A stretch of 64,000 bases of DNA, from the NCBI RefSeq assembly GCF_003061025.1, contig NZ_QAIL01000024.1:1-64000 (forward strand), written 5' to 3'. Source of the stretch: Pedobacter sp. HMWF019. Its GTDB lineage: Bacteria > Bacteroidota > Bacteroidia > Sphingobacteriales > Sphingobacteriaceae. Below the pieces are notes generated by a model, which searched no databases, was not told where the DNA came from, and saw nothing but the letters and a program-made list of their open reading frames with translations. The position numbers and the translations under genes are program-made. Shown in pieces: positions 51,699 to 64,000 of the stretch; position 1 is the stretch's first letter; each line of letters opens with the position of its first letter.

Positions 51699-53414
51699 TT
51701 AAAATGCAGATAAAGTAATTTTCTTCAAATCTATACCGCCTTGTTCGATGAGAATTCTTAATTGATGTGTTCCTTTGCTCAGTTTAACTTTGGATGGAAT
51801 ATCTGTTTGTTTCCGGCCATCAACTGTCAGAACAGCTTTACCTTTAGAAGAGGTCTCTAATGCAATCGTGTAAAGCCCGGTTTTCTCTGCTGTAAAAGTA
51901 TACTGAAGCCACTCTCCTTCTTCCGTGTCGCTTACATAAAACTGGTTTCCGGATTCCCTTTTGATGTCTACCCCATCGTTTCTATATACTCTTCCCCGAT
52001 TGCCTGCAGTGGTCACGCCTGTCGAACTGTGGTAATCGGCTGTGTCTTTATCAAAATAGGCATAGCCGTTTCTTCCAAAGTCATAATCTACTGCCGGGAT
52101 CTCCAGGTTTCCCTTTTCTTTTAACACCCAGTTTTTGAATGGCCTTGTAGAAGTGGTGTTTACCTGTCTGAACATGGCATCAATCACATCAGGATGTTGG
52201 AGATTATGGCCAAACTTCAGATCGTTTTTCAATTGCGTTAAGCCTTTAAGAGCGGTTTCTTTGGAGGTCTCAGGGCCCTTTTTGTTCCAGTAAGCCAATA
52301 CCTGCTGATAGTCGGGATTAGACGGAACTTCCAACGGGTTATTAAAACCTAATTTTTTTAAAGGCCACCAGCACCAGCCGATGTCATTTTTTTCCAGCAG
52401 CGAGATGGACTCTGTAAACCAAACGTTGGAGTTCTCCCCTGTCTCACCAACCCAAACTGGTATCTTGTATTGATCACGCTTTTCAAGAATACCTTTAATG
52501 GATTCTGCATTGTTAAAATTCCAATAGCGGTGAAAGCTCAATACCATATTGTTGTCCGATAGAGGGAGCATGCCATTGTAATTGTTTCCCCAGCCATTCC
52601 CTTCAATAATGATCAGGTGTTTTTGATCCACTCCCCGGATGCCTTTCGTAATGTCTATGAGTACATCTTTTAAAAGCGTATTCTTTTGTTCCTTTGTGCC
52701 ATGAGCATCATTTTTTTGATCCTCGAATCCCCAGTTGGGCTCGTTGAGAATATCGTAACCGCCAATCCATGGTTCTGAAACGTACCTTTCTGCAAGTTTC
52801 TTCCAGAGGGCTACGGTTTTACGTTGATTCTCCTTGCTGTCCCATAAAGAAGGATGATCCGGGTTCCGATCGGCGATATTCAGGTCATTTCCCTGCCCGC
52901 CAGGAGCCGCATGAAGGTCCAGGATCAGGTACATCTGGTTTTCCCTGCACCAGTTCAGAAGGCTGTCTGTTAAGGCAAAGCCTTTCTCCAGCCAGGTGTC
53001 TTTTCCAGATACAGGTTCCTTTTCTATAGGCAAAGTATACAGGTCATAATGCATGGGCAAACGGACAGAATTGAAACCCCAGGACTTCATGGCCTTGATG
53101 TCTTGCCTTGTGGTATGGTTACTGAGCCAGCCTTCATAAAATCTTGCTGTTTCTGTCTCGCCGATTAAGGATTGGATCCTTTCTCTGATCTTATATTGCT
53201 GCCCTTCCTGTTGAAGGCCCAGCATATAGCCTTCCTGTACCATCCAGCCTCCAAGACCAACGCCCCGGAGCAAAACTTCTTTCCCCTTCTCATCCACTAT
53301 TTTTTTCCCATCCGCCTTTAAGAAACCTTGTGCATTTGTATACAAAGGAAGAGCGCATAGGAGCGTATAAAAGGAAAGGGCCAGCGCAACTTTCCTGATC
53401 TGGTTCATGTTCAT
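51699..53414 (-). CDS. Glycoside hydrolase family 5 enzyme with C-terminal CBM-like domain
   Basis: The 571-residue protein has a signal peptide (about 1-29, ending TNAQG) and a GH5 barrel (about 35-385). Catalytic Glu225 lies in DILNEPNWG and nucleophile Glu324 in WVGETGENSN. The early VLLRGVGLGGWMVQEGY is typical of exo-beta-1,3-glucanase-like GH5. A C-terminal beta-sandwich (about 440-571, with EGEWLQYTF and HQLRILIEQGGIDLKKI) looks like a CBM6/35-type carbohydrate-binding domain. It starts directly at the end of the GH30 gene. The substrate is inferred as beta-glucan. Confidence 0.9.
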   Translation of the reverse strand: MNMNQIRKVALALSFYTLLCALPLYTNAQGFLKADGKKIVDEKGKEVLLRGVGLGGWMVQEGYMLGLQQEGQQYKIRERIQSLIGETETARFYEGWLSNHTTRQDIKAMKSWGFNSVRLPMHYDLYTLPIEKEPVSGKDTWLEKGFALTDSLLNWCRENQMYLILDLHAAPGGQGNDLNIADRNPDHPSLWDSKENQRKTVALWKKLAERYVSEPWIGGYDILNEPNWGFEDQKNDAHGTKEQKNTLLKDVLIDITKGIRGVDQKHLIIIEGNGWGNNYNGMLPLSDNNMVLSFHRYWNFNNAESIKGILEKRDQYKIPVWVGETGENSNVWFTESISLLEKNDIGWCWWPLKKLGFNNPLEVPSNPDYQQVLAYWNKKGPETSKETALKGLTQLKNDLKFGHNLQHPDVIDAMFRQVNTTSTRPFKNWVLKEKGNLEIPAVDYDFGRNGYAYFDKDTADYHSSTGVTTAGNRGRVYRNDGVDIKRESGNQFYVSDTEEGEWLQYTFTAEKTGLYTIALETSSKGKAVLTVDGRKQTDIPSKVKLSKGTHQLRILIEQGGIDLKKITLSAF

Positions 53415-54848
53415 TTATTTAATAATTAAGGTACTGATGGAATGCGGCATGCTGGTCGTTTCAGCAGCTTCGCCTTTCATCCAAATGTAATAAGGTACTG
53501 CCTTGTCTGAGTGGTTCATCACTACGACAACTACTGACCCGTCGGGGTTTAGGAAAGAAGTGGTTAACAGATTGTCGCGGCTTGAAGAGCTGGAAATTCT
53601 TTTTGCTCCGTTTTGAATGAACTTTGAAAACTGACCGATGTAATAATAGGCATTGGTATAGACCAGCTTTCCTGTTTTTGTGTCGGCATGTATAGGTGCG
53701 AAACAAAAATTCCCCACATGGTTGGGGCCACCGTTTTCATCTAATAATACATTCCAATCTGTCCAGGCTACTGTACCAGCGTTAAAGTCATTGATCATGG
53801 AATAGCCATACCGCTCGCCCAGCGCCCAGTCTTTTAACCTGCTAGGGTCAAATTTTTCTTCACAGCCTTCGGTAAAGATCAGGTGTTTATCCGGAAAAGC
53901 TTCTGCAACCCGCTTCAGGTTTTCAAACTGCATTCCGGCCCCGGTCCAGGTTTCATACCAGTGATAACCTATACCCCAAACATATTTAGCTGCGTCTGCA
54001 TCTTCCAGCAAGGTACTGGCACGTTGAAAAATCAAGTCACGGTTGTGGTCCCAGGCAATCAGTTTCTTATCTGCCAAACCTTCTTTGTGAAGCGTCGGCC
54101 CTAAGAAATTTTTGATGAAATCCCTTTCTTCCTCTGCTGTATAGATACAGGATTCCCATTTTTGTTTGGCCATAGGTTCATTTTGTACCGTTAAACCCCA
54201 AACCGGAATTCCCAATGCTTCATAGGTTTTGATAAATTTGACATAGTGGTTGGCCCAGCTTTGTCTGAATTCCGGTTTCAGTTTTCCTCCCTGTAGTACA
54301 TTGTTGTTGTCCTTCATCCAGGCAGGTGGACTCCACGGGCTTACATATAAAGGCAGTTTTCCACCGGCAGCTTCAATAGCCTGTTTAATAAAAGGAATAC
54401 GGTATTTCTTATCGTGACTGACATTGAATGATTTTAAACTTGCATCATTTTCTGCCAGATATCCATAGCTTTCTGTAGAAAAGTCACTACTTGCAATAGA
54501 GGTCCTGGCTAAGGTATAACCGATTCCTTTATCCTTGCTGTAATAAGCCGTTAAAAATTCTTTCTGCGCTGCCTTAGGTAGTTTAGCAAAAGTCTCTGCA
54601 GATGCGTCTGTTAAAGCTCCTCCAATTCCCATAAAGGTCTGAAAGGTTTTTGAAGGATCGACAAAGACACTGATCTGTGTCTCCATTGGCTGTTTAAAGG
54701 TTTTAAAATGTAGTTTTTCTGTTTCTGAAATCCGGAGTTCTGTTTGGTCTGCCGTAGTGTAAACGGTTACGGACTTTTCTCCTTCTCCCCGGCTTTGTGC
54801 CATTAAAAGTGAGGGTACCAGGACAAGGGCTAAAAAAAATTGCTTCAT
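53415..54848 (-). CDS. Glycoside hydrolase family 30 enzyme
   Basis: The 477-residue secreted enzyme has a signal peptide (MKQFFLALVLVPSLLMAQ), a split barrel plus beta-sandwich typical of GH30, acid/base Glu224 in LTVQNEPMA and nucleophile Glu327 in IFTEGCEE. Also typical are GIGGALTDASAE (74-85) and YVSPWSPPAWMKD. GH30 includes beta-1,6-glucanases (subfamily 3) and glucosylceramidases. Next to SusCD and GH5 a beta-1,6-glucanase role is most likely. It is separated from susD by a hairpin and a possible internal promoter. Confidence 0.92.
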   Translation of the reverse strand: MKQFFLALVLVPSLLMAQSRGEGEKSVTVYTTADQTELRISETEKLHFKTFKQPMETQISVFVDPSKTFQTFMGIGGALTDASAETFAKLPKAAQKEFLTAYYSKDKGIGYTLARTSIASSDFSTESYGYLAENDASLKSFNVSHDKKYRIPFIKQAIEAAGGKLPLYVSPWSPPAWMKDNNNVLQGGKLKPEFRQSWANHYVKFIKTYEALGIPVWGLTVQNEPMAKQKWESCIYTAEEERDFIKNFLGPTLHKEGLADKKLIAWDHNRDLIFQRASTLLEDADAAKYVWGIGYHWYETWTGAGMQFENLKRVAEAFPDKHLIFTEGCEEKFDPSRLKDWALGERYGYSMINDFNAGTVAWTDWNVLLDENGGPNHVGNFCFAPIHADTKTGKLVYTNAYYYIGQFSKFIQNGAKRISSSSSRDNLLTTSFLNPDGSVVVVVMNHSDKAVPYYIWMKGEAAETTSMPHSISTLIIK

Positions 54849-54922: not shown

Positions 54923-56446
54923 TTAATATCCTGGATTTTGTGTCAATTTACCTGTCGTTACGTCGTTTGCAGGAATAGGAAGCAGTTCGTGTTTGTTCTT
55001 TGTAAAGCCCAATGGTCCTAGTTCCTGCTCGGCCAGTCCCCACCGTACCAGGTCAAGGAAACGAAAGCCTTCAAAGGCCAGTTCCAATTGTCTTTCGGTA
55101 ACAATAGCCTGGAACAAGGCTGTACCACTAGCTGTTACCTCCGGCATTCCAGAACGGTCACGGACCTTTTTAAGTTCCCTTCTCGAGCCAGGTTCATCTC
55201 CTGCCCGGTAATCTGCTTCTGCAGCCATCAGCAATACATCAGCATAGCGCATAAACCGCCAGTTGGTTCCGTAATTTAATTCAGCAACCGTACCTCCGGA
55301 CTGGCTGGCATAAGAACCATATTTCCTTTGAAAACAACCATCAAAATCATAAATTCCGGTTGAAGGGAAATTTCCTCCTGCCGCTTTAAGTTCTTCGATA
55401 GACATAATGGTATTCTTTCTTCTGGTCACGTCACCCGCAGCAACAAAGGCATTATACAATTTTCGTTTGGCCAGGTTCATACCCCATCCACCTAATAAAG
55501 AATCTCCTGGTGCCATTACATAAGGCGCATCTGCTCTTGGACCCCAAAGCTGAATATGAATATTACTCTCCGGTGTCTTGCTCCAGGGGAAATTTCCGTA
55601 ATCATAGGCAGATACATTTGAATAAGAGATCTCAAACAAGGATTCTTTCCCAAACTCTCCTTTTTTGGAGAAAGCAAAGGCCGTACTGGATTCCAGGTCA
55701 TACTCTTTAGAATTGATCACGTCATTCAGGTACTTCACGGCTTCTGTCCAGTTTTGCTGATACAAATAAGCTTTCCCAAGCAAGGCTTGTGCTGCACCTT
55801 TTGAAGCCCGGAATTTATCTGCAGCACCGTATGCGCTTTTTAAAGGCAGCGCATCTATGGCTTGTTTCAAATCCGCTTCAATGAGTTTGTAAATCTCTGC
55901 TTTTGCTTTACGGCCTGTAGTGGAGTATTGAGCTGGGTCTATATCGCCAGTAACCAAGGGTACATCTCCCCATAAGGTAACAAGATCGAAATAATTATAC
56001 GCCCGTAAAAATTTGGCCTCCGCAATAACCCTTTTTCTAATGTCGGATTCTGGCTGAACTTTATTGATGATTTTATTTGCCCGGTAAACTGCCATATAAC
56101 ATTTTTGCCAGGTTTTAGAAACCTTGTCATTTTGAGGGGTTGCTCTGTATTTGTCCAGATCCTGATAGCCTGGCTGATCGCCATCATTAGCTCCTCCAGC
56201 ATTGCTTTCATCTGAAGGCATTATTTTTAACATCAGCATGCTATTCCATCCGCCGTTCCAATAATCAGACTGCATAATATCATATACGGCAATAATGGCC
56301 AGATTGGCATCAGCATCTGTTTTATAGAATTCATCTTCTGATAGTTTTCCTGGAATTTCCTGATCTAGAAAACTTTTTTTGCAGCCGCTGAAGATCAAGG
56401 TAGCAGCTGTACAAAACAGGATCATTTTTATAATTGTTCTGTTCAT
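54923..56446 (-). CDS. susD: SusD-like outer-membrane lipoprotein
   Basis: The 507-residue protein has a lipoprotein signal with lipobox FSGC (residues about 18-21) and the RagB/SusD fold. Conserved features include EAKFLRAYNYFDLVTLWGDVP and LELAFEGFRFLDLVRWG. It pairs with the SusC encoded 16 bases upstream and should bind the glycan at the surface. Ligand prediction rests on the GH30 and GH5 genes downstream. Confidence 0.95.
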   Translation of the reverse strand: MNRTIIKMILFCTAATLIFSGCKKSFLDQEIPGKLSEDEFYKTDADANLAIIAVYDIMQSDYWNGGWNSMLMLKIMPSDESNAGGANDGDQPGYQDLDKYRATPQNDKVSKTWQKCYMAVYRANKIINKVQPESDIRKRVIAEAKFLRAYNYFDLVTLWGDVPLVTGDIDPAQYSTTGRKAKAEIYKLIEADLKQAIDALPLKSAYGAADKFRASKGAAQALLGKAYLYQQNWTEAVKYLNDVINSKEYDLESSTAFAFSKKGEFGKESLFEISYSNVSAYDYGNFPWSKTPESNIHIQLWGPRADAPYVMAPGDSLLGGWGMNLAKRKLYNAFVAAGDVTRRKNTIMSIEELKAAGGNFPSTGIYDFDGCFQRKYGSYASQSGGTVAELNYGTNWRFMRYADVLLMAAEADYRAGDEPGSRRELKKVRDRSGMPEVTASGTALFQAIVTERQLELAFEGFRFLDLVRWGLAEQELGPLGFTKNKHELLPIPANDVTTGKLTQNPGY

Positions 56447-56462
56447 GATTCGATTATCTTAG

Positions 56463-59400
56463 TTAAAAAGTAAATGAGATGCCTGCCAATGCTTTTCTCG
56501 CAGTTGGATAAGTACCTCTGTCAATTCCAAGACTGTTACCGCCTGCGTTTCCTCCTTCCGGATCTAAGCCTTTGTATTTGGTGAAAGTGAAAAAGTCATC
56601 GAGTGAAACATAGATCCTCGCATTTTTAATCTTTAATTTGCTGGAGATAGAATTTGGAAGGGTATAACCGAGTTGTAACTGGCGAATCCGGGCAAAAGAC
56701 CCATCGAAAACCATTTTATCACTGTTATAAGCTTTAGCATCGGCATTTGCACTAAAGAAATTATTGGTACTGCCATCTCCGGTCCAGCGGTCTGTATAGA
56801 AAAATTCTGGTTTATTGGATGTCCTGCGGTCATTCCTTACAAATCCCATTAACACCTGATTTCCTTTGGATCCTTGAATAAAGGTTAAAAAATCAAATCC
56901 TTTATAGCTGAAGTTTAACCGAAGCCCGTAAGTAAAGTCTGGAACTGCATCACCGATATAGGTTTGATCAGTATCCGAAATCTGTCCGTCCTTATTCGTG
57001 TCTAAAATAACAGGATCTCCTGGTTTAGGTTTATAACCAGTCAGCTTATTTTGGGCAATGTATTGGTCTATTTGTGCCTGGTTCTGGAAAATTCCATCCG
57101 TTTTATATCCCCTGAAATACCAGATTGGAAGTCCTGCTTCAAAACGGGTAGCCGTCCATCCTGTACCAACGCCCGCGCCGTCAATAACCGGGTAGAGCGG
57201 GTTGGTTCTGGTTACCTTATTTTTGTAAGTACTTAAATTAGCGCCAATTTCATATTTAAAGGCATGATCATTTCCATTATTATAACTGAATTCAAATTCC
57301 CAACCCTTGTTTTCTACATCACCACTGTTTACTGTATTTAAAACATTTCCAACAAAATAGGGGTTCGCACCAAACGTCAGTAGATCTTTTGTTGTCTTTT
57401 TGTACCAATCTACGGATAGTGTAAAACGGTTGTTCATAAAATTAAAATCTGCCCCAAAGTCAAGTTGCTCACTTTTTTCCCAGGTCAGATCAAAATTGGG
57501 TAAATTGGTTGGTGAGGCTCCAAGCACAAAGTTTCCGTTGGCATCTGTATATTTAGAATCCTGCGATATCGAGTTTAAATACTCTCCAATTGCCACATTG
57601 GATAAACTTCCGTTTTGACCCCAGCTTGCTCTTAATTTGGCATAATTTATAACACTGGAAACATTTTCAGCAAAAAAGTCCTCTTTGGACAGGATCCAGC
57701 CTGCTGATACCGACGGATAAGTACCCCATTTGTGACCAGCTGCAAATAGAGAAGATCCATCTTTTCTAACCGTAGCCGAAATTAAATACCGGTCTTTATA
57801 ATCATAGTTTAGCCTTCCATAATAAGATACAAGTGTAGAATTATTGTACTGTCCATATATTTTTGCCAATTTATCTGGCGTATCCTGTACAAAATCCGGA
57901 TAAGCCCACTTATCCTGGTCTTTAAAGATTCCAGAATAGCTTCCGCCAAGATTATTGTACATTTTTTTTAGCGCAGATGTACCGGCCATTACACTAAAAT
58001 TATGCTCATTAATTCTTTTTGAATAGGTCACAAAGTTTTCCCATTGCCAATTGAAATAATTATTCTGATAGTCTGAACCGTTGGTTATGTTGTTCAATTT
58101 TTCACTGGAATACCATGTTTTTGGATTCCATGCATGGTTTCTTACAAAGGCAGCATCAATACCAAAACGGGTAGTGAAAGTTAAACCTTCCAGAGGGGTA
58201 ACATCGGCAAACATATTCCCAACTACCTTATTTTGTGTAGTTTGAGTATGGGTGGTTTCTATCTGTGCCAGTGGATTTCCATATTCTCCCTGGATAAATC
58301 TGGAAATGCCATAGTAATTGCCATTAGCATCCTTTACCAGTGGATTACCTGCATTAATTGCGTTTTGAACATGAGCAGGTAATGCTCCTGTATAGGTAAC
58401 CGGCGTAATGGGATCAAATGCCATCATACTTCCAATTACAGATCCATATTCGGTATTCTCAGGAATGCCGCGGCTCGTAAAGTTGGAGTAGGACAAGCGT
58501 TCCCCCACTTTAAGCCAGGATTTCATTTTATGATCTGAATTTATCCTGAATGTATAACGGTCAAATTTGGCTTTGTCGCCCCCAACAATACCTTGTTGCG
58601 TAAAATAGGTTGCTCCAAGTAAATAGGTTGACTTCTCATTTCCGCCGCTAAAGTTTAAAGTATGGTGTTGCTGAGGGGCATTTTTCAAAACCTCTTTCGT
58701 CCAGTCTGTCCCTAAGCCTACCGCAGCAACTTCGGCATCAGTAGGTGCATTTTGGCCTGCCTCTTTCATGTATTGCTGGTATTCAGGTGCATTCATCATT
58801 TTGGTAAAATTCCTGGCAGACTGCTGGCCCAACTGGAAGGTATAATTTACATCCATGGTGTTTGGCTTCCCCGATTTAGTGGTGATGATCACCACCCCAT
58901 TGGCGCCTTCTGCACCATATATTGCCGCAGATGCTGCATCTTTTAAAATCTCTAATGAACTGACCTCTGAAGGATCCAAATATTCTATTCCTCCTGCACG
59001 TACGCCGTCTACGATATAAAGTGGCTCAGAACTTTTATTGGATCCAGTTCCTCTTACACGAATGCTAAGGGCAGAACCTGGTGCTCCTGAATTGGGAGAT
59101 ACCGTAACTCCTGCCGTTCTGCCTTGTAAGGCCTGGTCAATCCTGCTGGAGGAAACTGTTTTCAATTCTTCTGCTTTAATGGAAGATATAGCTCCGGTAA
59201 CCAGGCTCCTCTTTTGGGTGCCATAGCCAACCACAACTACCTCGTTAAGTTTGTTGTCTTCTTCTTCCAATACGATTTGTACCGGGCCGCTACCTGTTAC
59301 AGTAAATGTTTTGGCCTTCATTCCAATCTGGGAAAAGACCAATACTGAATTGTTTCCGGGAACTGTGATTACAAAACCTCCGGTTGCATTAGTACTAACC

Positions 59401-59558
59401 CCTTTTTGTGTACCCTGTATCTTCACAGAAACCCCGGGAAGCGGATTTCCATCTGAAGCGGTAACTTTTCCCGTCACATTTATTCCCTGGGCATTGGTCA
59501 GAAAGGGAACAAGGAGTAAACAGGAAATGAAGAAAATGAGTGTAATTCTTCTTTTCAT
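56463..59558 (-). CDS. susC: SusC-like TonB-dependent transporter
   Basis: The 1031-residue transporter starts MKRRITLIFF with a signal peptide ending TNAQ. It has a carboxypeptidase-regulatory-like domain (about 24-100), the plug (about 105-230, with EPLYIVDGVRAGGIEYLDP), and a barrel ending GISFTF. Unlike the SusC at 26997 it has no STN domain, so it should not signal through FecR, and its regulator is encoded next door. I start at 59558; a longer frame to 59594 adds twelve residues ahead of the signal. Promoter and operator candidates lie in 59595-59776. Confidence 0.94.
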   Translation of the reverse strand: MKRRITLIFFISCLLLVPFLTNAQGINVTGKVTASDGNPLPGVSVKIQGTQKGVSTNATGGFVITVPGNNSVLVFSQIGMKAKTFTVTGSGPVQIVLEEEDNKLNEVVVVGYGTQKRSLVTGAISSIKAEELKTVSSSRIDQALQGRTAGVTVSPNSGAPGSALSIRVRGTGSNKSSEPLYIVDGVRAGGIEYLDPSEVSSLEILKDAASAAIYGAEGANGVVIITTKSGKPNTMDVNYTFQLGQQSARNFTKMMNAPEYQQYMKEAGQNAPTDAEVAAVGLGTDWTKEVLKNAPQQHHTLNFSGGNEKSTYLLGATYFTQQGIVGGDKAKFDRYTFRINSDHKMKSWLKVGERLSYSNFTSRGIPENTEYGSVIGSMMAFDPITPVTYTGALPAHVQNAINAGNPLVKDANGNYYGISRFIQGEYGNPLAQIETTHTQTTQNKVVGNMFADVTPLEGLTFTTRFGIDAAFVRNHAWNPKTWYSSEKLNNITNGSDYQNNYFNWQWENFVTYSKRINEHNFSVMAGTSALKKMYNNLGGSYSGIFKDQDKWAYPDFVQDTPDKLAKIYGQYNNSTLVSYYGRLNYDYKDRYLISATVRKDGSSLFAAGHKWGTYPSVSAGWILSKEDFFAENVSSVINYAKLRASWGQNGSLSNVAIGEYLNSISQDSKYTDANGNFVLGASPTNLPNFDLTWEKSEQLDFGADFNFMNNRFTLSVDWYKKTTKDLLTFGANPYFVGNVLNTVNSGDVENKGWEFEFSYNNGNDHAFKYEIGANLSTYKNKVTRTNPLYPVIDGAGVGTGWTATRFEAGLPIWYFRGYKTDGIFQNQAQIDQYIAQNKLTGYKPKPGDPVILDTNKDGQISDTDQTYIGDAVPDFTYGLRLNFSYKGFDFLTFIQGSKGNQVLMGFVRNDRRTSNKPEFFYTDRWTGDGSTNNFFSANADAKAYNSDKMVFDGSFARIRQLQLGYTLPNSISSKLKIKNARIYVSLDDFFTFTKYKGLDPEGGNAGGNSLGIDRGTYPTARKALAGISFTF

Positions 59559-59621
59559 ACGAATTTGATTTAGGTTTATAATTTGGTTTGGCATTCACCA
59601 GATTTGGGGATCTGGCTTGAT

Positions 59622-59629
59622 CAAATGTA
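59622..59629 (-). promoter_or_regulatory. Possible -7 box of the beta-glucan susC operon
   Basis: Reads TACATTTG on the minus strand, 63 bases before the chosen susC start. A weak -33 fits an activator-dependent promoter. Confidence 0.45.
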
Positions 59630-59662: not shown

Positions 59663-59734
59663 CACTACACCAACCCTACAGTGGGTTCAGAAACCCATTT
59701 CTAAAGACATTGTAAGCACTACATGAGCACTACA
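59663..59734. promoter_or_regulatory. Repeated CACTACA sites upstream of susC
   Basis: GCACTACA occurs at 59716-59723 and 59727-59734 (11-base pitch) and CACTACA again at 59663-59669, 54 bases from the nearer one. On the minus strand these read TGTAGTG. TGGGTT/AACCCA (near 59683-59698) forms a small hairpin between them. They lie upstream of the susC -7 box and could bind the HTH regulator encoded just upstream. Confidence 0.5.
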
Positions 59735-59776: not shown

Positions 59777-62689
59777 TCATTTTTGATTCGCAATATCCAT
59801 CAAAAAATCGAAAAGGTTAACTTCGGTTGCCAGTTGTAATTTTTTCCTCAAACGGTACCGGCCCACTTCTACCGCTTTTGGAGTAATGTTCATCAGTTGA
59901 GCAATCTCTTTGGTGGAGAGGTTCATCTTGAGGTATGCGCAAAGTTTGAGTTCATTTGGGGTAAGATCGGGAAAAAGGTCTTTCAGCTTCCCGAAAAAAT
60001 CATCATTCACATTATTAAAATGAAGCGTAAACTGTTCCCTGTCCTGATCGCCCTTCTCTACATCCCTGATGAGCCGCAACAGGTGCCGGAAGCTTTGTGA
60101 ATTGTCTGGAACATCATGCTTTTTAACCAGCATAGAAATTACATCTTTGATTCTGGACAGGACTTTACCCCGCTCGACCAGGTGCATGGTCATCGCAGCA
60201 AGTTCTCTGTTCTTAAAATTCATGTCAGCTTCTAGTTTTTCATTTTTCAGATCAGCAATTTGCTTCTCATTACGATCCGTTTCCAACTGGTGTAGATAAC
60301 TGAGTTTTTCCTGAGCTTTTTTATGTTTTATTTTCTGCCATTTGAACAAGAGATATATCCCTACAATTGCAACCATCAAATAAAGGAGATAGGCCCAAAT
60401 GCTCCTGTACCAGGCTGGTTGTATCACAAACCGATAGGCTGATGCCTCAGATTCACTGCCCAGGTTATTTCTGGATTTAATCTTAAAAGTATAATTTCCA
60501 GGAGGAAGATTGGTATAGTCCTTTTCACTTTTTGCGTTCCATTCTGACCAGGATTTGTCGAATCCTGCCAATTGATAACTGAATTCAATATTGTTCTGTT
60601 GCTCAAATAATGTAGAGGAATATTCAAAATGCAGGGAATTGTGTTCATGAGAAAGTTGCAGTACGTGCTTACTGTTCTGCTGTCGGGTAACCTGATCTCC
60701 ATTCATAAAATAACCGCCAAAAAGGATACTGTCTTTCTTTCCAAAAAGCTTTACTACTCCAAGAAGAATGTTTGGTTTGAATGTATTTTCTTTATACTTT
60801 TTATAATTGATATGAAATGCGCCTTTGCTTGCCCCTATAAATATGTTCTCTTCATTTAAAGGATAAATGGACTCAAAACCACCCACTACTTTTTCATTAA
60901 GCTCTGGCAGATAAATAATATTAAAAGGCTTGGATGCTGAAGCCTGACTAAAGTCAACAATCCCAACCCGTTTGTTGGAAACAAACCATACATTTCCTTG
61001 ATTATCTTCTTTAAGGTATTGAATCTGAATATTTTTCAAAGCGCCATTAAATAAGGGAGAGGGTTTAAAGGAGTCATTTTTTGGATCATATTCATAGAGT
61101 CCCTTTTCAGTGGAAATTATCCTTCGGTTTTTGATCCGGTACAAATAATTATGTAAAGTAGAAGGCAAGCCATCCTGCTTCCCGTAAATACGGCTGTTCA
61201 GGATCCGGCTGTAATCTGGGGCTATTTTTAGTTTATAAATCCCCCTGTTGGGATGAGATACCCATGCGGTGTTTTCTTCGGCATCAAAATCCAGAAACCT
61301 GAAGGAATCTGTATAACCGGGCAGCTGTCCTTTATTCTCAAATTTTCCTTCGTTAAAACTTAAATGCAGCAATCCAAAATAATTTCCTGCAAGTATATCC
61401 TTAGCTGGATAAACCCAGGAAACCGGTTGAAACAACCAGGTTCCGGCGGAGGTGATCTTCCTGGCTTTGACCCCTTCTATAAGAAAAATACCATCCTCAT
61501 GTCCCATCAATAACTGACCATTAATTTCCTGAAGTCCCCACACCTGGCCTTTAGCATTTGTTACTTCATAAAATGCTCGTTTTGACAAACTGATGTCTTT
61601 CTGATCAGGATCAACTTTTGATGCATAGAGACCATTAGAGGTTCCAACATATAATACGTCTTTGAATAGGTTAATCGCATAGCCGGTTGCTTGTTTATTT
61701 TTATCCGGGAATACCGTTTTAATTGCACTATTGATACCAATAAGATCTATACCATCATCAAGTGCAACCCAAAGGCTTTTGTTTTGATCGATCAGTAATC
61801 CCCTGATGTTGTCCTTCTGAAGTCCTTCTTCATAGGAGTATTTCTGGATCATCTTTCCGTTCTTGTTAATGATCAAAATCCCGGTAGAAGTACTTCCAAA
61901 GGCATACCATTCGGAATTGACCTGGGTAGCACAATAAATCCGGTCATTATGGAACAGATGGTCTACTTCTGTTACAAATGGAGTAAGTGCCTTCGAAGAC
62001 ATTTTAAATAACCCTGTTTTCAATGTGGTAACCAGTAAAGTATCCCTGCGAAAAGGGAGAATCGAGGTGATCTCCGCATGGTCCAATTCGGGAGGGTTAT
62101 ATAAGGGCTGCCAGATGCCGTTCTTATAGATCATCAGTCCTTTCCCTTTTACTTGTGCATAGACTTCCTTATTTCCGGTTCCTAAGAATTCCCATTGTGT
62201 TTCTGGTTTGTAAATGCGGATGCGGTTATCTTTAAAATGCAGGATCTTACTCAATGAGCGAAAGAATACTTCGTCTCCCCGGATAACAATATTCCAGATG
62301 TCTGCAAATTTCCGCTCCTTTTCCGGGATCAAATGCATTAAAGAATGGTACGTGAGCACACCATTTTCGTTCGGAAAAAAATAGCCGGCTTCATCTTGTC
62401 CTCCAACAAAAATTCTGTTTTTCGCATCGATCTTTACCGAGCGGACCACGGTAAAGTTTGGCAAATGGTAAATATTCCAGAAACGTCCATTGAAGGTAAG
62501 CAGACCATCATTATTACCGAAATAAAGAATTCCATTTTGATCCTGGGCTACATCCCAGTTCTGAATTCCTCCTTTGTATTGTCCATAGCTATAGTTTACA
62601 ATTTGCGGGAGTGCCAGTGGTGCCTGTGCCAGGGCTAAAGAACTTATAAATAAGAGTATAAGAAACAGAAGGTTCTTCTTTTGATTCAT
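59777..62689 (-). CDS. Membrane sensor-regulator: beta-propeller, Y_Y_Y domain, LuxR-type HTH
   Basis: The 970-residue protein starts MNQKKNLLFL with a signal peptide. Repeated beta-propeller sensor blades (about 30-690) and a Y_Y_Y immunoglobulin-like domain (about 690-760, YTNLPPGNYTFKIKSRN) follow. One membrane helix (about 763-784), a coiled coil, and a C-terminal LuxR-like HTH (about 909-959, LTPNELKLCAYLKMNLSTKEIA) complete it. There is no histidine kinase or receiver, so it is a one-component relative of the hybrid PUL sensors. It lies upstream of susC and is the likely activator. The longer frame to 62737 lacks signal character. Confidence 0.92.
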   Translation of the reverse strand: MNQKKNLLFLILLFISSLALAQAPLALPQIVNYSYGQYKGGIQNWDVAQDQNGILYFGNNDGLLTFNGRFWNIYHLPNFTVVRSVKIDAKNRIFVGGQDEAGYFFPNENGVLTYHSLMHLIPEKERKFADIWNIVIRGDEVFFRSLSKILHFKDNRIRIYKPETQWEFLGTGNKEVYAQVKGKGLMIYKNGIWQPLYNPPELDHAEITSILPFRRDTLLVTTLKTGLFKMSSKALTPFVTEVDHLFHNDRIYCATQVNSEWYAFGSTSTGILIINKNGKMIQKYSYEEGLQKDNIRGLLIDQNKSLWVALDDGIDLIGINSAIKTVFPDKNKQATGYAINLFKDVLYVGTSNGLYASKVDPDQKDISLSKRAFYEVTNAKGQVWGLQEINGQLLMGHEDGIFLIEGVKARKITSAGTWLFQPVSWVYPAKDILAGNYFGLLHLSFNEGKFENKGQLPGYTDSFRFLDFDAEENTAWVSHPNRGIYKLKIAPDYSRILNSRIYGKQDGLPSTLHNYLYRIKNRRIISTEKGLYEYDPKNDSFKPSPLFNGALKNIQIQYLKEDNQGNVWFVSNKRVGIVDFSQASASKPFNIIYLPELNEKVVGGFESIYPLNEENIFIGASKGAFHINYKKYKENTFKPNILLGVVKLFGKKDSILFGGYFMNGDQVTRQQNSKHVLQLSHEHNSLHFEYSSTLFEQQNNIEFSYQLAGFDKSWSEWNAKSEKDYTNLPPGNYTFKIKSRNNLGSESEASAYRFVIQPAWYRSIWAYLLYLMVAIVGIYLLFKWQKIKHKKAQEKLSYLHQLETDRNEKQIADLKNEKLEADMNFKNRELAAMTMHLVERGKVLSRIKDVISMLVKKHDVPDNSQSFRHLLRLIRDVEKGDQDREQFTLHFNNVNDDFFGKLKDLFPDLTPNELKLCAYLKMNLSTKEIAQLMNITPKAVEVGRYRLRKKLQLATEVNLFDFLMDIANQK

Positions 62690-62804
62690 AACGAGCATGG
62701 ATAAGCGTTGTCTTAAAATTCCAAGACGGAGGGTCAAGTTAATACTTTCTAAAAGAATAACCCCATCTCTGAAAACTAAAATTTCTGCTTTATGTTATTT
62801 CATC

Positions 62805-63290
62805 ATGAACGAGGAACAAAAGAAGTCATTACTGATAAAAGAGCTTTATGATTTGCTTTCCAAAGGGAATGCTCACGTCACATTTGAAGAGGCGGTTAAA
62901 GATATTTCTTTAGATAAGCTGAGGTTAACCCCTGAAAACCTGCCTTACAATATCTTTCAGCTGGCCGAACATATTCGAATAGCACAATGGGATATTGTTG
63001 AATTTTGTATCAACCCGCATCATGTCTCTCCAAAATGGCCAGAGGGCTACTGGATAAGCGGTGATTATACAATTTCCAGACAGGCCTGGGATCATATTTT
63101 ACAGCAAATTAAGCAAGACCGGGAAAGATTCATTCAGTTTCTGAAAGCAACAGACAATGATCTTTTCGAACCTCTCTCACATGGTACCGGGCAGAGTCTT
63201 TTTAGAGAAGCTTTATTGATTGCAGACCATACAGCGTACCACACCGGGGAAATCATCCTCATCAGGAGATTGTTGAAGATCTGGAATTGA
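62805..63290 (+). CDS. DinB-like four-helix protein
   Basis: A 161-residue soluble protein of the DinB superfamily: about four helices, an early metal-type His in FQLAEHIRIAQWDIVEF, and a late HTAYHTGEIILIRRLL segment with two His residues. These positions fit the three-His metal site of DinB/YfiT proteins. The activity is unknown; relatives include thiol-dependent transferases. I use Met 62805 (MNEEQKKSLL) because the longer frame from 62697 adds a basic segment of no family character. It diverges from the sensor-regulator gene. Confidence 0.87.
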   Translation: MNEEQKKSLLIKELYDLLSKGNAHVTFEEAVKDISLDKLRLTPENLPYNIFQLAEHIRIAQWDIVEFCINPHHVSPKWPEGYWISGDYTISRQAWDHILQQIKQDRERFIQFLKATDNDLFEPLSHGTGQSLFREALLIADHTAYHTGEIILIRRLLKIWN

Positions 63291-63465: not shown

Positions 63466-64000
63466 TTATTTTTTAGCCTTTTCAGTGGAAAAGGAATAAG
63501 GGAAATCTGCAGGGTCTGATCCTCTTTGTTTATTTGGAACAGCAGACATATTAAAGTTCAGCACGCCTCCATTTTGCAAACCGGAATGGCTGATCCAGTT
63601 TTTTGAATAGGGTTTTCCATTAATCTGCAGAGACTGTACGTACCGGTTTTCCTCACTGTTACCTGGCGCATTAATGGTTACTGTTTTACCATTTTCAAGC
63701 TTTAGGGTTATCTTCTTAAACAGAGGCGCACCAAGTGCATACTGATCTACTGCAGGCGTAACCGGGTAAAATCCTAAGGCAGAAAAAACGTACCAGGCAG
63801 AAGTCTGGCCATTGTCTTCATCGCCACAATAACCGTCTGGGGTTGCTTTATACATTCTGTTCATGGTTTCTCTCGCCCAATATTGTGTTTTCCAGGGAGC
63901 TCCACCATAATTGTACAGATAGATCATATGTTGGATCGGTTGGTTTCCATGTGCATATTGCCCCATATTTGCGATCTGCATCTCTCTGATCTCATGAATA
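63466..64000 (-). CDS. Glycoside hydrolase family 92 alpha-mannosidase, 3' end only
   Basis: Only the C-terminal 178 codons are in the window; the frame runs off the right edge. It shows IREMQIANMGQYAHGNQP, YCGDEDNGQTSAWYVFSALGFYPVTP and a C-terminal beta domain (ITLKLENGKTVTINAPGNS), all characteristic of GH92 exo-alpha-mannosidases, including the acidic DEDNGQ catalytic segment. These enzymes trim N-glycans or fungal mannans. Next to a beta-glucan locus this suggests fungal or yeast cell-wall feeding (inference). Confidence 0.9.
   Translation of the reverse strand, partial: IHEIREMQIANMGQYAHGNQPIQHMIYLYNYGGAPWKTQYWARETMNRMYKATPDGYCGDEDNGQTSAWYVFSALGFYPVTPAVDQYALGAPLFKKITLKLENGKTVTINAPGNSEENRYVQSLQINGKPYSKNWISHSGLQNGGVLNFNMSAVPNKQRGSDPADFPYSFSTEKAKK

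Follow-up and report, generated by a model that had tools for sequence, protein, structure and literature searches.

Two pairs of direct heptamers upstream of susC as a predicted operator of a kinase-free propeller–LuxR-type regulator in Pedobacter

Direct repeats have been predicted as operators of two kinds of regulator that control susC genes. In the excerpt of Ravcheev et al. 2013 (PMC3878776), SusR-like regulators of Bacteroides are assigned predicted direct repeats whose centres lie 67 or 77 bp from each other, and HTCS are assigned predicted direct repeats next to susC, 21 bp apart on average. BT3309 of the 1,6-beta-glucan locus is called a SusR-type regulator in a passage of PMC5481569, and LuxR-annotated genes head many of the laminarin clusters compared in a passage of PMC13188888. 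Additionally, a passage of PMC10269533 describes transmembrane transcription regulators, in which an extracytoplasmic sensor and a DNA-binding domain share one polypeptide, and lists Y_Y_Y among their common domains. For the propeller–Y_Y_Y–LuxR class, no published operator was found in open-access PMC text, supplements excluded. Here, we describe a repeat array beside a regulator of this class.

The window, that is, the whole stretch of 64,000 nucleotides that was analysed, encodes this regulator and a SusC protein on the minus strand, with a gap of 182 bp between the regulator stop codon and the start of the susC ORF. Based on Pfam, the sequence, and a model of the C-terminus, the regulator (59777–62737) comprises a Reg_prop propeller, Y_Y_Y, one presumed membrane helix, a long helix, and a GerE/LuxR-type HTH. 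Its ORF runs over these positions from a TTG, and the shorter extent given in the earlier note (59777–62689, from a later ATG) is retained as an alternative. The membership of a kinase-free propeller-HTH class proposed there agrees with Pfam, by which Reg_prop, Y_Y_Y, and a GerE-type HTH are assigned to the regulator and no kinase, receiver, or AraC domain is detected in it at E 0.1. The GerE domain scores 24.4 bits against a cut-off of 23.5, and the single membrane helix was read off the sequence. The C-terminal 202 residues, modelled from three sequences, have a mean pLDDT of 76 and end in four helices. The nearest Foldseek matches of this model are FixJ, StyR, DosR, and NarL (1je8), at E 0.005 and weaker; with no match at E 0.001 or better, the similarity to the NarL-type fold is weak. 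Beside the regulator lie a gene for a DinB-like protein (62697–63290, plus strand) and a GH92 gene that is cut by the window, which includes its end (63466–63999).

On the other side of the gap, SusC (56463–59594, minus strand), recognized from its ORF and profile matches, is followed on the same strand by SusD (54923–56446; ORF and profile match) and by a GH30 enzyme (53415–54848) and a GH5 enzyme (51699–53414), both assigned by profile matches. The longest reading of SusC begins MPNQ, probably too early, and homologues begin MKRR or similar; the true start is probably the inner ATG at 59558, which would give MKRRITLIFF, as in homologues. The best NCBIfam model for the GH30 enzyme is the endo-1,6-beta-glucanase BT3312, with 246.5 bits against a 700-bit cut-off, so a beta-glucan substrate can only be suggested.

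The repeat array sits inside the gap, and in the window the repeats come shortly after the regulator stop codon. On the plus strand, CACTACA occurs at 59663–59669, 59717–59723, and 59728–59734, exactly where the earlier note had placed its three copies. The last two copies form GCACTACA at a pitch of 11 bp, and the second of the three lies 54 bp from the first. The array is, however, larger than the three copies noted; a fourth half-site, CCCTACA (family D1) at 59674–59680, had been overlooked, and it completes a second pair whose pitch is also 11 bp. Read on the susC (minus) strand and compared with orthologues, the array therefore consists of four heptamers, TGTAG(T/G)G, arranged as two pairs, each with an 11-bp pitch, at a spacing of 54 bp. 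The distal pair is TGTAGTG (59728–59734) followed, after 4 bp, by TGTAGTG (59717–59723); 54 bp on, the proximal pair is TGTAGGG (59674–59680) followed, again after 4 bp, by TGTAGTG (59663–59669). The repeats are also upstream of a box, as previously noted: TACATTTG, the -7 box of the predicted susC promoter (59622–59629, minus strand, assigned by sequence position), begins 33 bp past the proximal pair. A palindrome with 6-bp arms, TGGGTTCAGAAACCCA, was spotted by eye between the two pairs (59682–59697). A sigma-70 promoter scan is meaningless in the phylum of the window; in the excerpt of PMC9723704, the sigma-A box of Flavobacterium is at -12 to -5. With the box so placed, the predicted susC start would be near 59617, which would put the proximal pair at roughly -46 to -63 and the distal pair at roughly -100 to -117.

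Compared with the SusR family (homologues of BT3705), as SusR-like regulators appear in the excerpt of PMC3878776, the locus shares a kinase-free, single-polypeptide regulator by susC/susD and co-oriented direct-repeat boxes many turns apart. The sensor and the boxes differ. SusR-like proteins (L152 and L164), of the kind that occurs by sus and 1,6-glucan loci, carry DUF6377 and TPR-like parts in place of Reg_prop/Y_Y_Y, and their HTHs are 24% identical to the window type (mean over five SusR-like proteins). Between the cytoplasmic modules, hhalign indicates homology, at a distant level only (probability 88%, E 2.8e-6, 102 columns). Their box, TCCACTTTT, occurs once per site by eye, whereas the window has an 11-bp heptamer pair, and their spacing of 67 or 77 bp contrasts with 54 bp in the window and 43–44 or 53–55 bp in relatives (42–56 scanned). 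The SusD model NF033071 at E 1e-200 found nothing in 295 class genomes, and the SusR-like loci were located by way of NF053856 and a second centre. Upstream of susC in L152 and L153, both SusR-like, TCCACT boxes recur at a distance of exactly 77 bp, with TAnnTTTG 44 bp after the proximal one. Of the four SusR-like regions scanned, the other two, L155 and the gap by susA in L164, showed no tandem TCCACT, and none of the four contains TGTAG. We regard the array as following SusR-type logic, with long-spaced in-register direct repeats and a one-piece regulator; its sensor and boxes are different, its heptamers are paired, and its spacing amounts to 4 or 5 turns.

The regulator resembles HTCS in its propeller/Y_Y_Y periplasmic sensor, with the periplasmic part matching the HTCS sensors PDB 4a2l and 3v9f in sequence, and in direct-repeat operators by susC, as far as the excerpt of PMC3878776 describes them. 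In contrast, Pfam detects neither a kinase nor a receiver in it at E 0.1, a GerE-type HTH replaces AraC, and an 11-bp pitch, present twice, stands against the average of 21 bp in that excerpt. Like the transmembrane transcription regulators, it appears to join an extracytoplasmic sensor to a DNA-binding domain in one polypeptide; the passage of PMC10269533, however, mentions no operator and ties Y_Y_Y to two-component domains. The likeness to NarL/LuxR (GerE) domains lies in the Pfam score slightly above its cut-off and in the weak Foldseek matches to FixJ, DosR, and NarL; the difference is that the window regulator is apparently membrane-tethered and is found with 11-bp tandem direct repeats, twice. 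NarL/LuxR-type HTHs are known mostly for inverted sites.

To examine conservation, we searched 151 family genomes with the regulator at E 1e-150, which gave matches in at least 82, with no more than five candidates per genome scored; a search of genome contigs for orthologues gave two only. From the 92 loci examined, 61, the window included, had a regulator at least 34.5% identical and susC within 1200 bp. Fourteen were left out for want of a full regulator match or of susC within 1200 bp of the regulator (L024, L026, L042, L046, L047, L052, L060, L062, L065, L066, L067, L072, L094, and L095), of which nine still carry a TGTA[GT]-TGTAG pair somewhere; L112 was omitted as a duplicate of L050. 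Each locus was scored with a matrix built solely from the four half-sites of the window, against 500 dinucleotide shuffles and with pair spacings of 30–79 allowed. The earlier note would have been contradicted by orthologous susC promoters lacking the repeats; they are present, beating all 500 shuffles, in 34 of the 35 other loci whose regulator shows 45% identity or more. Among the 25 more distant loci, 12 beat all shuffles, namely 8 of 17 at 40–45% identity and 4 of 8 at 34.5–40%, so that by falling identity 1, 9, and 4 loci did not pass at 0/500. On the reverse strand, none of the 60 loci beat all 500 shuffles with this matrix. Since orthologues are related, these counts of loci are not independent. 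The spacing is canonical (42–44 or 51–55) in 29 of the 34 close orthologues that passed. A score below 24 was obtained in 16 of the 61 loci; in five of these, susC is about 1 kb away, and the wrong promoter was possibly read.

Pairwise identity is 77% for half-sites and 31% for spacers among 28 loci that were chosen because they score well and have a spacing of 53–55, a selection that inflates the half-site value and leaves the spacer value unaffected. Across the 61 regions, the susC strand has 156 copies of TGTAG and the opposite strand 15, where dinucleotide shuffles give 19.6 (sd 4.4), and the commonest TGTAG–TGTAG distances are 11 (50), 53–54 (36), 42–44 (21), and 64–65 (20). The strand preference is found whether regulator and susC are in tandem (71 versus 1 in 19 loci) or divergent (85 versus 14 in 42 loci), which indicates that the elements most likely serve susC. 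In the Dyadobacter locus L052, where the regulator lies beyond susD, we also saw TGTAGTAGTAATGTAGTG, 54 bp on (by eye) TGAGGTAGTAATGTAGTA, and then TACCTTTG and susC.

Furthermore, a strict pattern, TGTAG-N6-TGTAG-N26..40-TGTA-N7-TGTAG, was sought without reference to genes. It was found in 64 of 399 family genomes, once in each, and the reversed control gave none; in 395 class genomes it was found in three, all of the genus of the window, and the control gave one match. The pattern was composed after the first loci had been seen, so the scan is not independent evidence of the motif as such; it did not constrain the pair spacing between 42 and 56, the distance to the box, or the neighbouring genes. 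In 63 distinct contexts, the pair spacing is 43 (3), 44 (3), 53 (24), 54 (32), or 55 (1), and no other allowed value from 42 to 56 occurs among them. There are thus two spacing classes, 43–44 and 53–55 bp, approximately one helical turn apart. TAnnTTTG starts 32 bp (36 contexts) or 33 bp (20) past the proximal pair in 56 of the 63; of the remaining seven, one has the box at 44 bp and six lack it within 60 bp. Among 45 good loci from the ortholog set, an exact TAnnTTTG at 28–37 bp is absent in 11.

A regulator match adjoins the strict operator in 59 of the 63 contexts, one of them (L228) by its cytoplasmic part only, and susC is downstream in 60. These data support the earlier tie between the repeats and the adjacent regulator. 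Where one gene separates regulator and susC (L208 and L217), the sites are kept at susC, and where the regulator (51% and 50% identical) is on another contig (L225 and L226), the operator remains with susC. Of the 151 genomes, 21 are strict-positive, and every one of these is among the at least 82 with a regulator match; in one of them, G001, the match is a paralogue (33%) located elsewhere, and a 7TM protein stands at the operator. In the 6.9-Mb genome of the window, there are five copies of the exact pair TGTAGNNNNNNTGTAGNG and one of its reversed control; two of the five belong to the window array, one precedes another susC, which follows a further HTH of this kind (contig C616), and two are elsewhere. 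At C616 (L094), a second operator was seen by eye upstream of susC at 423–480, with TGTAG at 0, 11, and 33 bp, after the C-terminus of a regulator truncated at the contig edge.

The protein at the operator of G001 (L228, 2389–4110) has 574 residues and carries a 7TMR-DISM sensor in place of the propeller, with a similar cytoplasmic HTH, whose closest counterpart among 73 group-A HTHs is 79% identical and whose mean identity over the 73 is 59%. The operator, with a pair spacing of 44, lies between susC and this protein. This single natural swap suggests that the motif goes with the HTH rather than with the sensor class. In addition, the share of A at half-site position 7 is 0.16 for the recognition helix KAVEVG, 0.17 for KAVEVS, and 0.48 for RAVEVS; K versus R in the recognition helix may be a clue to specificity, but the pattern follows the tree. 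Paralogues of approximately 32% identity (L093, which is G000:C624, and L098–L111) show other elements in the regulator–susC gap. An inverted ACTACATCATTACCTCTCAT occurs in 13 of 16 paralogue loci (at most 3 mismatches), with its start 4–5 bp inside the gap, counted from the regulator, in 12 of the 13, and GATGTAGTAATGTnGAGGT occurs in 14 of 16 (at most 4 mismatches). From start to start, the two are 163–165 bp apart in 8 of 13 loci, 152–155 in three, 148 in one, and 136 in one, distances that perhaps reflect helical register or a loop.

Several other readings of the repeats were weighed against these results. CACTACA by itself is not rare, its 7 copies in the window (4.35 expected) being equalled in 12 of 100 shuffles, which counts for a chance origin. 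However, three copies in the gap were reached in none of 20,000 dinucleotide shuffles and the four-site score of the gap in none of 3000; together with the 64 strict matches against no reversed-control match in 399 genomes, these counts refute a chance origin, whose probability is negligible. The position of the repeats right after the regulator stop would fit the end of the regulator transcript or an RNA element conserved as such. This is very improbable: the gap holds neither a terminator-like site nor an Rfam match, on which grounds both readings were dropped, and the repeats are kept upstream of susC where the regulator is divergent or unlinked, are separated by poorly conserved spacers (31%), and are upstream of the predicted start point of the susC mRNA.

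The heptamers might instead bind another, perhaps global, transcription factor of many susC promoters, with the adjacent regulator binding elsewhere. susC promoters are generally under multiple regulation, which counts for this reading. Nevertheless, we consider it quite unlikely, as the exact pair lies upstream of only 2 of the 150 Plug genes scored (209 candidates), both adjoining an HTH of the regulator's kind, and the motif persists where the sensor is replaced (L228). The adjacency in 59 of 63 contexts and the confinement of the 21 strict-positive genomes to those with a regulator match, the 33% paralogue of G001 included, likewise speak against it. A further unlikely reading, though a marginally more probable one, is that the regulator does bind the repeats and thereby silences the operon, by repression or by autoregulation of the regulator. 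The sign of regulation is not readable from sequence, and in divergent loci the region also precedes the regulator gene; against this, the strand of the sites is tied to susC in both gene arrangements, and where a -7 box is found, the sites end 32–33 bp upstream of it without overlap. Such a position relative to the -7 box is a usual one for an activator.

Collectively, the repeats are very probably the operator of the adjacent regulator, through which it would activate the susC operon. A periplasmic oligosaccharide, perhaps from beta-glucan, may be sensed by the propeller/Y_Y_Y part, and the NarL/LuxR-type HTHs, which would remain anchored to the inner membrane on its cytoplasmic side, would read the four TGTAGKG heptamers, all in one orientation along a single DNA face, presumably with two HTHs per pair. 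The proximal pair would place the regulator in contact with RNA polymerase at the TAnnTTTG -7 box promoter, while the distal pair, 4 or 5 turns upstream in helical register, would bind a second dimer cooperatively. The expected outcome is activation of susC-susD-GH30-GH5.

Kinase-free propeller regulators adjoin susC in many genomes of the family, and an operator at a fixed distance from the -7 box makes the regulons of these regulators predictable; with the operator defined, binding and activation are directly testable. Moreover, the one sensor swap suggests that sensors are exchangeable on a common DNA-reading module. We tentatively extend this to the possibility that a coil with a LuxR-type HTH is a portable module across sensors (propeller/Y_Y_Y, 7TMR-DISM, and, distantly, the SusR-kind DUF6377), which would read co-oriented half-sites on an 11-bp grid as two tethered dimers on one face, whole turns apart. 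If so, membrane-bound PUL activators would follow a helical-register code, from which their operators and regulons could be predicted.
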